A DNA stretch of 51,676 nucleotides, from positions 1 to 51,676 of the IMG/VR virus record IMGVR_UViG_3300009183_000012. One strand, 5' to 3'. Made by a program: the position numbers and the translations under genes. Below are positions 9,305-38,300 of this stretch, one piece after another. The notes beneath the pieces are model-generated. The model had not been told where the DNA came from. It saw nothing but the letters and a program-made list of their open reading frames with translations, and ran no database searches. Position 1 is the first letter of the stretch; the number at the start of each line of letters is the position of its first letter. The DNA is from a virus.

Positions 9305-10737
9305 TATAGAACCGTCCCACCCATATCCATAGCTTTCTTGACATTCTTATCAAGGACCAGACCCACATTGCCGTTAGTGTCCATCATGTAAACGGACCCC
9401 TTTGGTGCGGGAGGGAGACCCGGATTTGTGGAAGCTTTCGGCGTGACTGCGGCACCACGGGCTGCGGCAGCGGGCGTTTGCGTGGAAGCAGCTCCAGTCT
9501 TTGACTTCTCAGCTGCGTCTCTCTCTACACGCTCATTCAGCATTCTCTCAAATGCCGCCGCTTGGCTTTCCGGTGGGGTACCAGCTTTGACAAAGAAGTC
9601 CTTAATGTATTTAATTTGCTCATCTCTAGTGATCCATCCCTCGTCGTAGGCCCGCCGCATGCTCGCTACAATGGGACTAGGATCAGAGCCAAGCTTGGCC
9701 GCCCGTATTTCCAGCAAGACACCTTGAAGTTCGTTCTTAACCCTCTGATTCTCAGCTGCGGCAGTTGCCTTATTAGCTGCGGCGGTTGCGACCAAGTCCC
9801 TGCCAGTGAGATTGACCATTTGCTCGTCCGTCAGGTTGATGCCCTGTGCAATCATCTGCCCCAAACTGGTGCCCTCAAGAGCTTCGGCCCTACGCTTGAT
9901 CCGGTCTGCCGCTTGGGTCGTCAACACGCCAGCCCCTCCCATGTTGCTTGCCACGGGGACGTTGCCCATCTTGTTTTCCAAGACGTTGACGTTTGGTGTA
10001 GGAGTCGCAGTGCCCGAGCGTAAGGGACTGTTGGGTACGTCGATGGATGGCGGCGGAACGGGAAGGGTGAACGGATTACCCGAGGTGACTGGGGCTGTGA
10101 TTGGGGCTGGGAGTGGGGCTGGACGGAGCACGTCCTTGTAACCGCCCAACGAAGCCGGTCCTGCTGGGGGGGCGTCGGGTAACTGACGAACAACCGCCGC
10201 ATTGAGAGTACCGGCAGTGTCCATAGTCCTCCGCATGTTTTCGACTGTTGCGGCGTTCCGGTTGAACTGCTCTTGGGTTCGGGCGGCAGCCGCTTGCTGA
10301 CGAGCATTCTCCGCCTGTGCGATACTGCTGGCCTGCTGGGCTATGGTACTCTGCTGTTTCATCTGCTCCATCTGCGCAGTCCGAAACGCCCGCTGCTGCT
10401 TGTCTTCCTCGGTCTTGATGTAGCTGCGGGCAAATCCCCCGAGCAGCGATGCCTCCCGCGCACCAAGACTGCCTTCCTTGTTGAGCTTGAGATACGCTTT
10501 GACCACGTCGGAAGGCAGTGTGGCCCGCTGCTCCTCGTCGGCGAGCAACGCTTTCAACGACTCGCTGTTGGCCACCGCCGCACCGAAATCAGCAATGGAG
10601 GTGTCCGCGATTTGCTTGTTCTGCTCGTAGGTTTTGATGCCCGCATTGAAGCCTTCGAGCAGGCTGTTGATGCCTCTGGTCATGCCTTGGGCACGGATCT
10701 GCCCGCTGATGTCAGATACGCCGGGATTGTAGGCCAT
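9304..10737 (-). CDS. Helical/low-complexity internal virion protein candidate
   Basis: 477 residues. Residues about 110-175 are Gln/Ala-rich and coiled-coil-like (QMKQQSTIAQQASSIAQAEN), followed by a Pro-rich linker (about 190-260), a helical region with NLTDEQMVNLTGRDLV, and an Ala/Pro-rich tail. The leader before the ATG is TAAACCACC with no Shine-Dalgarno. Place in the operon, between nozzle/fibre proteins and the giant ejection protein, matches the internal core proteins of podoviruses. No enzyme motif is visible. Confidence 0.6.
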   Translation of the reverse strand: MAYNPGVSDISGQIRAQGMTRGINSLLEGFNAGIKTYEQNKQIADTSIADFGAAVANSESLKALLADEEQRATLPSDVVKAYLKLNKEGSLGAREASLLGGFARSYIKTEEDKQQRAFRTAQMEQMKQQSTIAQQASSIAQAENARQQAAAARTQEQFNRNAATVENMRRTMDTAGTLNAAVVRQLPDAPPAGPASLGGYKDVLRPAPLPAPITAPVTSGNPFTLPVPPPSIDVPNSPLRSGTATPTPNVNVLENKMGNVPVASNMGGAGVLTTQAADRIKRRAEALEGTSLGQMIAQGINLTDEQMVNLTGRDLVATAAANKATAAAENQRVKNELQGVLLEIRAAKLGSDPSPIVASMRRAYDEGWITRDEQIKYIKDFFVKAGTPPESQAAAFERMLNERVERDAAEKSKTGAASTQTPAAAARGAAVTPKASTNPGLPPAPKGSVYMMDTNGNVGLVLDKNVKKAMDMGGTVL

Positions 10738-34758: not shown

Positions 34759-35094
34759 ATGTCCAAACTCATCCTCCCCCGGATCCACCTCGGTGGCACC
34801 GGCCCCACCACGCTCATCGCCGATTACTCCGCTGCCATCGCGGCGTTGCAGGAAGCCCTCCGCCTGCTCGGCGAGAGCTACCACGACCGCGACTACTACC
34901 TCCTCGGTCAGGATATCCACCGCGAGGCTCGTGGTCAGCACGTCGAACGCTGCGCCGCCATCGGCGGCGTGATCGCCGCCCTCCGAGCCATGCAAGACCA
35001 CGCTGCCGACGAGCGCGACGCCCGCGACGGCATTGCCCGGGCGTGGCTCGACGCTGACGCCGACGACCACCACGCCCGCACCCGCCAACCCTAA
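34759..35094 (+). CDS. Conserved phage protein of the HLxGT...RDYY type
   Basis: 111 residues. RIHLGGTGPTTLIADYSAAI at 8-27 and HDRDYYLLGQDIHREARGQH at about 64-83 fit a small phage family that I remember by an IHLNGT start and a RDYY box, always of unknown function. Helical throughout, with an Asp/His-rich tail. Its TAA stop is immediately followed by the first base of the hammerhead ribozyme, so the mRNA end left by cleavage would lie 25 bases past this gene. Confidence 0.65.
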   Translation: MSKLILPRIHLGGTGPTTLIADYSAAIAALQEALRLLGESYHDRDYYLLGQDIHREARGQHVERCAAIGGVIAALRAMQDHAADERDARDGIARAWLDADADDHHARTRQP

Positions 35095-35147
35095 GGACGA
35101 AACGCCCCCACCGGGCGTCTCGGCGTTTCGCGCCGACTGACGAGTCC
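35095..35147 (+). ncRNA. Type-II hammerhead ribozyme
   Basis: All core elements are present in type-II order: GGAC (35095-35098), GAAA (35099-35102), stem III CGCCC/GGGCG with loop CCACC, GUC with predicted cleavage after C35119, stem I UCGGCG/CGCCGA with loop UUUCG (35120-35136), CUGACGA core (35137-35143), and GUCC (35144-35147) closing stem II with the first four bases. Every invariant base (C3, U4, G5, A6, G8, A9, G12, A13, A14, A15.1-U16.1, H17) fits. It occupies the 84-base gap before the AAA+ gene. Cleavage would give the AAA+ message a 5'-hydroxyl end 59 bases before its ATG. Confidence 0.9.
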
Positions 35148-35178: not shown

Positions 35179-36213
35179 ATGTCCTCCTCCTCCCGCCTCA
35201 CCCAACTCCTCAACGCCAACCGCCGCGTCCTCCTCGTAGGTCCGCCCGGTTGTGCCAAAACCGCTCGCGTCGCCGCCGCCGCCCTCGACTGCAACCGCAA
35301 GCTCATCGTCTTCCGTTCCGCCCTCGCCGAGAGGGTGGACCTCGGTGGGTGCTACGTCCCCAACCAAGCCAAGGGCGTCACGGAATCGCTCCCGCTGCAA
35401 CTCCTCTGGGACTTGCGGCACACCACCGTCCCCACCCTGCTCTTCCTCGACGACCTCGGGCAGGCCCCCGTCGACGTGCAGGCTGCAGCGATGGCCCTGT
35501 TTGACGACGGTGCCATCAGCAAGTCGGTCGTGATCTGGGGTGCCACCAATCGACCCGGCGACAAGGCCGGTGTGACCTCGCTCTGCGAGCCGCTGCGCTC
35601 GCGGTTCCACGTTGCATTTGCGATTGCAACGCCCCAGACCGAAAACAAGACCGACGGCCCGACCTACGTCGCCCCGTGGCGCGATGAGGTCGATGCGTGG
35701 GCCGCGTGGGCGAACGAGCAGGGCTTCGCCCCTGAGCTCGTCGCGTGGCACCGGTCCACGACCGGGCGTACGTTGTACGCTTGGAAGCCCGCCGCCGACC
35801 CGGCCACCCGCATGCCCGACTTCCGCAGCTGGGAAACGGTCGGTCACCTCTGGGAGGCGGGTCTCCGCGACTTCGACACGATCAGCGCCGCAATCGGCAA
35901 GGCTGCCGCCGCAGAGTTCCTCGCCTTCGCCGCCCTCGCCGACCAGCTGCCCACTCCACAACAGGTGTGGATGGACCCGCACGGTGCCACGGTGCCGACC
36001 GAACCGGCGGCGCAGTACCTGATCGCCTCCATGCTCGGTCGGGCGGCGGAGGCCAAGTTCGCGCCGCAGCTGGTCACGTACCTGTCCCGCCTGCCCCGCG
36101 TGATGGGTGCCTACTGCGCAAAGGACGCCTTCGCCCGCCTCGGTGCCAAACTCGTCGCCAACAAGGCATGGCAGGAGTGGTGGGTCGCCAACCAAGCCCT
36201 GTTCACTGCCTGA
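35179..36213 (+). CDS. MoxR/CobS-like AAA+ ATPase
   Basis: 344 residues. Walker A GPPGCAKT is at 21-28, Walker B LLFLDD at 87-92, and the sensor-1 Asn is in WGATNRP (121-126). Arg residues in PLRSRFHV near 140 fit the arginine finger. The C-terminal half is helical and less conserved. MoxR-type ATPases work with VWA-domain partners, often encoded nearby, to remodel or load metals into target proteins. Here a VWA/metallopeptidase gene lies two genes downstream. The leader contains the hammerhead ribozyme. Confidence 0.85.
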   Translation: MSSSSRLTQLLNANRRVLLVGPPGCAKTARVAAAALDCNRKLIVFRSALAERVDLGGCYVPNQAKGVTESLPLQLLWDLRHTTVPTLLFLDDLGQAPVDVQAAAMALFDDGAISKSVVIWGATNRPGDKAGVTSLCEPLRSRFHVAFAIATPQTENKTDGPTYVAPWRDEVDAWAAWANEQGFAPELVAWHRSTTGRTLYAWKPAADPATRMPDFRSWETVGHLWEAGLRDFDTISAAIGKAAAAEFLAFAALADQLPTPQQVWMDPHGATVPTEPAAQYLIASMLGRAAEAKFAPQLVTYLSRLPRVMGAYCAKDAFARLGAKLVANKAWQEWWVANQALFTA

Positions 36214-37094: not shown

Positions 37095-38300
37095 ATGTCC
37101 ACCACACCCATCGCTATCGACAAAGCCCGCTACTGGGCGCTCACCACTCCGCACGCTGCCTTCTACGGCAGCCTCGCCTCCAACTTGGTCGACGTCATGG
37201 ACCCCTCGGTCCAGACCGCTGCGACCGACGGCAAGGTCATCCGCTGGAGTCCGGAGTTCGTCGCCTCCCTCACGCCGGAGGAGGTGCGCTTCGTGCTCCT
37301 GCACGAGACCCTCCACTGCGCCCACAACCACTTCGACCGCTTGCCCATTACCCCCGAGGGTAACGAGGCAGGCGACTACGCGATCAACGCCGTCCTCGAA
37401 AAGGTCGCCGGGATCACGATGCCCAAGGGTGGGCTGCGCGACACCAAGTACGACGGTCTCGCGGAGGAGGAAATCCTCGCCGCCCTCCGCCGCAAGCCGC
37501 AGCCCAAGCCGCAGGATGGCCAGCCCGGCCAGCCCGGCCAGCCCGACCCCAACGGCCAGCCCGACCAGCCCGACCCCAACGGCCAGCCCGACCCCGGTGG
37601 CTGCGGCGGGTTTGGCCCGCCTGCACCCTCTGCCCCGCCTGCCCCCGGCAAGGCCGCGCCGCAGACGATGGCGGAGAAATGGACGCAGGCCATCGTGCAG
37701 GCCGACATGGCCGCACGCAGCCTCGGCAAAGGCAATGCGCCCGCCGAGATGCAGCGCATCATCGACGCCGCGACCGCTGCGGCCAAGCTCAACTGGAAAG
37801 ACGAGACCGCGGACTTCCTCAAGTCCAGCATCGCGACCCGCAACGATTGGACCCGCTCGGCCCGCCGGTTCGCGGGTGCTCCCGTGATCTATCCCCGCCG
37901 CCGGGTCGACTCGACCGGTCTCGTGGTGTTCGTCCGCGACACGTCGGGCAGCGTCGACGACAAGCTCACGGCGCAGTTCACGGCGCTCATCGCGCAGTGC
38001 TGCGGCGACCTGAACTGTGAGGCTCTGGTCATGGACTGCGACACGATCATCCACGCCGAGTATCGCCTCGCACCCGGCGAGGAAGCGCCCCTGCACGCCA
38101 AGGGCGGCGGAGGCACCGACTTCCGCGAGCCCTTCGCCCGCGTCGCGGAGCTGGTCGAGTCGGGCGAGAACGTCGCCGGTCTGGTCTACCTGACAGACCT
38201 CTGCGGTGACGAACCCGACACGGTCGACGTCTCGACCCTGTGGTTGTCCACGACCAAGTCGGTCGCCCGCACTGGTCACACGGTCCACGTCGACCTGTGA
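37095..38300 (+). CDS. Metallopeptidase/VWA-domain protein (DUF2201-like)
   Basis: 401 residues. HETLH (70-74) followed by CAHNH (75-79) is a zinc-peptidase motif. A collagen-like linker of QPGQPGQPDPNGQP repeats covers about 142-168. The VWA-like domain has the metal-ion site DTSGS (282-286), Thr341 in GGGGTDF and Asp368 in YLTDLCGD. This layout is the DUF2201 putative metallopeptidase plus VWA-like pair. Together with the MoxR-like ATPase it forms a chaperone-type module of unknown target. In phage T4-like and cyanophage relatives, CobS/CobT-like pairs also occur without a cobalamin pathway. Confidence 0.8.
   Translation: MSTTPIAIDKARYWALTTPHAAFYGSLASNLVDVMDPSVQTAATDGKVIRWSPEFVASLTPEEVRFVLLHETLHCAHNHFDRLPITPEGNEAGDYAINAVLEKVAGITMPKGGLRDTKYDGLAEEEILAALRRKPQPKPQDGQPGQPGQPDPNGQPDQPDPNGQPDPGGCGGFGPPAPSAPPAPGKAAPQTMAEKWTQAIVQADMAARSLGKGNAPAEMQRIIDAATAAAKLNWKDETADFLKSSIATRNDWTRSARRFAGAPVIYPRRRVDSTGLVVFVRDTSGSVDDKLTAQFTALIAQCCGDLNCEALVMDCDTIIHAEYRLAPGEEAPLHAKGGGGTDFREPFARVAELVESGENVAGLVYLTDLCGDEPDTVDVSTLWLSTTKSVARTGHTVHVDL

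Follow-up and report, generated by a model that had tools for sequence, protein, structure and literature searches.

A type II hammerhead ribozyme abutting a stop codon at a phage gene junction, with relatives in many viral loci

In a metagenomic phage, a stretch of 53 bases lies in the junction between two genes of the replication region, which raises the question of what these bases are and what they might do to the RNA that crosses them. The window examined here is the whole IMG/VR record IMGVR_UViG_3300009183_000012 (51,676 bases), and the element occupies positions 35095-35147 of its plus strand. A first-pass annotation had taken these positions for a type II hammerhead ribozyme that has every core base, three stems and a GUC cleavage site, is permuted so as to be open at stem II and starts on the base after a stop codon. 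That description is borne out by the sequence, and its coordinates are right to the base. The 5′ strand of stem II (GGAC, 35095-35098) stands immediately 5′ of the GAAA core box (35099-35102), which is invariant in our alignment A2. The stem III hairpin CGCCC-CCACC-GGGCG follows (35103-35117), its strands 35103-35107 and 35113-35117 forming five pairs that covary in A2 around the loop CCACC, with A35102-U35118 extending the stem by one further pair. At the junction of stems III and I lies the NUH triplet, here GUC (35117-35119), for which established hammerhead chemistry predicts a cut between 35119 and 35120. The stem I hairpin TCGGCG-TTTCG-CGCCGA (35120-35136) consists of six pairs (35120-35125 with 35131-35136) and a UNNNG pentaloop, UUUCG; it is followed by the CUGACGA core box (35137-35143) and by the 3′ strand of stem II (GTCC, 35144-35147), next to which stands the common A (35148). 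Loops close stems I and III while stem II is open to the flanks, as in the type II permutation. Stem II is flanked 5′ by an A in nearly all relatives, and in the window copy this conserved base is A35094, the last letter of the stop codon TAA (35092-35094).

Hammerhead motifs are small, and a chance or decayed look-alike is the first alternative to be weighed. A strict structural finder, which requires the core, an NUH triplet at the junction and all three stems, gave a single match in the window with both strands taken together; neither 30 shuffled windows nor 1.06 Mb of shuffled loci contained any. The Rfam type II covariance model, proposed as a check in the first-pass annotation, did find the motif, but below its threshold: RF02276 (Hammerhead_II) aligned over its full model with 28.1 bits (E = 2.9e-5 for the record), short of the gathering score of 37 bits. 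We therefore built a model, R1, from 54 other phage copies, leaving out the window and its AAA+ relatives; it scored the window copy at 65.3 bits (E = 2.1e-18) as the sole match in the record. In 19 loci (128 kb), R1 identified 87 copies at E<0.001 and the RF02276 cut-off three, a ratio that describes this subclass only, because the loci had been found by pattern. The sub-threshold score of the window copy is thus explained by the insensitivity of the Rfam model to the subclass. That score and the small size of the motif are what a look-alike has in its favour; with an R1 E-value near 2e-18, the lack of any motif in shuffled sequence and compensatory changes in orthologous leaders (below) all pointing the other way, we strongly disfavor it, to the point of regarding it as negligible, and the identification of 35095-35147 as a type II hammerhead stands. 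A second weak RF02276 match (10137-10199, 18.4 bits) was rejected, since it carries GAAG in place of GAAA, lies inside a minus-strand gene and is blank with R1. Weak matches to HDV, MIR531 and Bcj14 near the motif, far under their own cut-offs, were likewise discarded.

The gene directly upstream of the ribozyme is most likely an open reading frame of 111 amino acids (34759-35094, plus strand) for which no family was found, and a similar frame, read by eye, stops just 5′ of the ribozyme in a related locus (L004). Open reading frames were called by length, without a trained gene finder. A count of frames of at least 100 amino acids spanning the motif was set aside, because GC-rich phage DNA has long spurious ones. 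Downstream on the same strand is an AAA+ ATPase gene (PHROG 1297, Pfam AAA/AAA_5; 35179-36213), whose ATG at 35179 leaves 31 nt between it and the ribozyme, so that the motif does not fill the leader as first described. Further along the same strand is a gene for a DUF2201 metallopeptidase-like/VWA-like protein (37095-38300). Around the junction we detected neither a terminator-like site nor a promoter-like one, the promoter scan covering sigma-70-like sites. Gene starts on both strands of the window generally lack a Shine-Dalgarno sequence, many reading ACC-ATG or CC-ATG, and the host probably starts translation without Shine-Dalgarno pairing. Our searches found no isolated phages with similar DNA, and the AAA+ homologues from isolates are less than 30% identical among the matches listed.

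A search of viral contigs with the AAA+ protein recovered eight loci. The leader of L003 is the same sequence as that of the window, and L004 and L010 carry the motif in the same AAA+ leader. A second ribozyme copy is present in L010, one gene upstream, and L005 has a single copy, located before an upstream gene. The two ribozymes of L010 (3493-3549 and 3903-3960) are nearly identical and lie at neighboring junctions, which suggests a recent duplication of a junction module. In L006-L009 the strict finder detected no ribozyme with the AAA+ orthologues, and the ribozyme is therefore dispensable for this gene. The window and L004 share the stem I sequence TCGGCG/CGCCGA, where L005 and L010 have CAGTGC/GCACTG; among the close relatives, five of its six pairs have changed on both sides, with 100% of cells still paired. 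Stems II and III are invariant among the five closest copies and variable in the wider set. The compensating changes that the first-pass annotation had suggested looking for in relatives were thus found, with all three stems maintained. Across 54 aligned copies, 14 of 16 pairs have changed on both sides, and the covariation score is 0.647, compared with 0.135 for shuffled versions and 0.10 or less after sliding, although these copies are paired by construction because the finder chose them.

How widespread are such ribozymes? Pattern scans that fixed the core and stem II only returned at least 119 stretches with C at core position N7, at least 120 with T and 37 with a purine. After removal of duplicates, at least 410 motifs in at least 221 viral loci pass the strict finder, a non-random sample biased to GGAC/GTCC stem II sequences. 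Stems I and III also form in 273 of the 293 distinct pattern matches listed, whereas they form in only 19 of 5,860 versions with the interior shuffled, and hence these stems are no product of the search. Judged by sequence, then, the collection shows a large phage class of predicted ribozymes, most of which a search at the standard Rfam cut-off overlooks. In cellular genomes, a pattern scan matched 42 stretches. Two of the cellular loci, from Phycicoccus jejuensis NRRL B-24460 (L272) and Streptomyces iakyrus NRRL ISP-5482 (L274), hold three tandem copies each with identical scores, and these arrays may be the same element, such as a shared prophage, or contamination.

Among the matches listed, 386 motifs were examined for the stop codon of an upstream open reading frame of at least 50 amino acids; in about 47% of them it falls within −3 to +2 nt of stem II, compared with 47 of 2,188 control AGGAC sites (2.1%). 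Stop positions peak where TAG overlaps the motif by one base (59 cases) and where TAA or TGA abuts it (58), and the conserved A 5′ of stem II is accordingly often supplied by the stop codon itself. No earlier description of this fusion with the stop codon was found in the open-access literature searched. Downstream, the ATG follows at a median of 23 nt, and of 75 loci that hold at least two copies, 74 have all of them on one strand (both among the matches listed). Copies can be clustered: one 45-kb record has 12 of them in a stretch of about 7.4 kb, and one 58-kb record has eight in about 4 kb; the record of the window has one. The 80 downstream proteins that were scanned gave matches to 34 PHROG and 22 Pfam families, none of them seen more than five times, and one other copy precedes a gene of the DUF2201 family, which neighbors the AAA+ gene in the window. 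Given this diversity, the ribozyme is tied to junctions and not to the AAA+ gene. The emphasis that the first-pass annotation laid on that gene could not be sustained in view of the orthologues in L006-L009 that lack the ribozyme and the unrelated genes that follow copies elsewhere; the AAA+ link is incidental.

What recurs in many phages is thus a conserved ribozyme structure at gene junctions on the sense strand, and we consider it highly probable that the window copy is a cis-acting type II hammerhead serving as punctuation in a polycistronic phage transcript. The separation of upstream and downstream messages is, we infer, its most likely role. A transcript would run from the 111-amino-acid gene into the AAA+ gene, the motif would fold once the RNA passes 35147, and self-cleavage would follow between 35119 and 35120. 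The stem III hairpin would then form the 3′ end of the upstream message, which would carry a 2′,3′-cyclic phosphate 25 nt past its stop codon; the AAA+ message would begin immediately at the stem I hairpin with a 5′ hydroxyl, 59 nt upstream of the ATG. With a stable hairpin capping each new end, the two products could be translated and degraded independently of one another, and neither a terminator nor a second promoter would be required. Cleavage in vivo, with an effect on RNA stability or gene dosage, would be the expected consequence.

The spread of the copies could also be read as that of a selfish or freely moving intergenic module that brings the phage no benefit. Related phages do carry the ribozyme at different junctions (two in L010; one in L005, before another gene), and the genes that follow it are unrelated. 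However, stem sequences often differ widely within one record while their pairing is kept, which argues for long maintenance; strand and junction position are common to almost all copies; and we saw no mobility gene associated with the copies. We judge a purely selfish module to be distinctly improbable and continue with message punctuation as the preferred reading.

The main doubt about the predicted fold of the window copy concerns stem II, whose four pairs are weak without tertiary contacts. In thermodynamic calculations, which take in neither tertiary structure nor Mg2+, stem II of the window copy has a probability of 0.85 when the motif is folded alone, which decreases to 0.51 when short flanks are added and to 0.02 when the flanks are 30 nt long; the family median with 30-nt flanks also drops, to 0.08. 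The low values with long flanks may reflect a limit of the energy model, and tertiary contacts would have to help stem II to form. A competing pairing of six bases between GUUUCG (stem I and loop I) and CGAAAC (core) was considered and rejected as implausible, at a predicted probability of about 0.002.

In a subset of the class, a different competitor appears. The hammerhead consensus leaves core position N7 free. In a first set of motifs TCAG was strongly over-represented 4-11 nt 3′ of the CUGANGA box, and the base preceding it tracked N7. The prediction that motifs with N7 = T would have ATCAG tails was fixed before a second scan, in which the base before TCAG was A in 33 such motifs, G in one and T in one, and G in four of four motifs with N7 = C. 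With identical tails collapsed, the combinations of N7 and tail base are U-A 36, C-G 27, U-G 3 and C-A 1 (Fisher p = 2.6e-14); the association persists with one motif per locus and N7 (p = 8e-12). Tails exactly complementary to their own CUGAN box number 60, against 4.7 expected, and where the offset leaves the next base outside stem II, a C stands opposite G8 in eight of eight cases. Contrary to prediction, none of 51 motifs with A or G at N7 has a complementary tail, and the hairpin is therefore confined to pyrimidine N7. Altogether the covarying tail hairpin is found in 66 of 410 copies (about 16%) among the matches listed; the window copy lacks it. Examples occur in L054, L227, L059, L040 and L176, of which L227 holds seven copies whose N7 and tail base switch jointly within one genome. 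Two cellular cases agree with the N7-tail pairing. Tail-hairpin hammerheads with U at N7 and A in the tail occur on two contigs of the Acidobacteria MAG SZAS-4 (L270 and L286). No earlier description of an N7-covarying tail was found in the open-access literature searched. Tails complementary to the 5′ strand of stem III are also in excess across the class (12 against 3.2 expected), possibly as mere purine-rich ribosome-binding sites.

The hairpin, CUGAYG-AGUC-CRUCAG, is mutually exclusive with stem II. In motifs with the tail, the hairpin is predicted to be favored by a median of 2.6 kcal/mol, and in those without it the active fold by 1.0 kcal/mol; the predicted probability of stem II, 0.985 before the tail, drops to 0.019 once the tail is included, compared with 0.984 and 0.963 in motifs that have no such hairpin. 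We lean towards the view that a substantial share of type II hammerheads in phages carry a timer or lock in which a (C)RUCAG tail would form 5-6 bp with CUGAY(G). As a timer, the tail could limit folding to the short interval before its transcription; as a lock, it could form after cleavage and stop re-ligation of the products. If this is true, the tail-hairpin copies are natural self-limiting hammerheads.

Such competitors raise the possibility that the window element, too, is regulated and often off, cleavage being set by a ribosome at the abutting stop codon or by competing RNA structures. In about half of the copies the stop codon overlaps stem II or lies directly against it, and a ribosome terminating there would thus mask part of the core, although this adjacency could just reflect the compactness of phage genomes. 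Competing structures placed downstream are known to prevent ribozymes from assembling in vivo as effectively as those placed upstream (PMC2817708), and a covarying competitor accompanies the 66 of 410 listed relatives noted above. The window copy, however, is without that tail, and in short context its active fold is favored by 3.2 kcal/mol over the state with stem II open. A mostly silent, regulated element, as opposed to constitutive punctuation, is in our view unlikely here, though it deserves more weight than the other alternatives.

Hammerheads from bacteria and phages have been on record since 2010-2011. Type II examples, and the proposal that they split polycistronic phage mRNA, were reported by Perreault et al. 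2011 (PMC3088659), with a frequent pseudoknot between loop I and the tail and with clusters around prophage genes. Hammerheads from prophage clusters or tandem arrays were active in vitro and one triple set cleaved in E. coli, whereas four of 18 tested consensus hammerheads were inactive (PMC3088659). Since type, clusters and processing proposal are all found there, the window element belongs to a known kind. The functions of hammerheads in DNA genomes are only starting to be learned (review PMC6155905). Already known, then, are the element type and the mRNA-processing idea; additional here are the phage class missed by Rfam, the stop-codon adjacency and, in a subset, the N7-covarying tail. 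These make phage mRNA processing by ribozymes testable, including activity that is timed or tied to translation, and in practical terms they provide a simple model of the subclass with which to annotate phage genomes.

Outside ribozymes, a functional likeness is seen in phage T7, in which RNase III processes the polycistronic early mRNA at sites between genes, the resulting ends being capped by hairpins. Intergenic cutting and hairpin-capped ends would be common to both systems, but T7 relies on a protein enzyme of the host, whereas here the RNA would cut itself to give the predicted 5′ hydroxyl and 2′,3′-cyclic phosphate. With the type II hammerheads of RF02276 the window copy shares the permuted order, the core and the GUC site, and both they and the phage class described here occur at phage or prophage junctions with tandem copies around genes. 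It differs from them in its four-pair stem II, the 5′ flanking A and the UNNNG pentaloop on stem I. A pseudoknot between loop I and the 3′ tail is not evident, with two exact 5-mer complements class-wide against 3.8 expected and, by eye, no 4-nt complement of the window loop UUUCG in its tail AGCCGCC. HHphage of the haloviruses HF1/HF2 (PMC3088659) offers another parallel, a hammerhead just upstream of an early-region gene (a helicase) in a lytic virus, for which a 5′ end was mapped at most 3 nt from the cleavage site. HHphage is a core variant related to a high-Mg2+ form, whereas the window copy carries the full consensus core.
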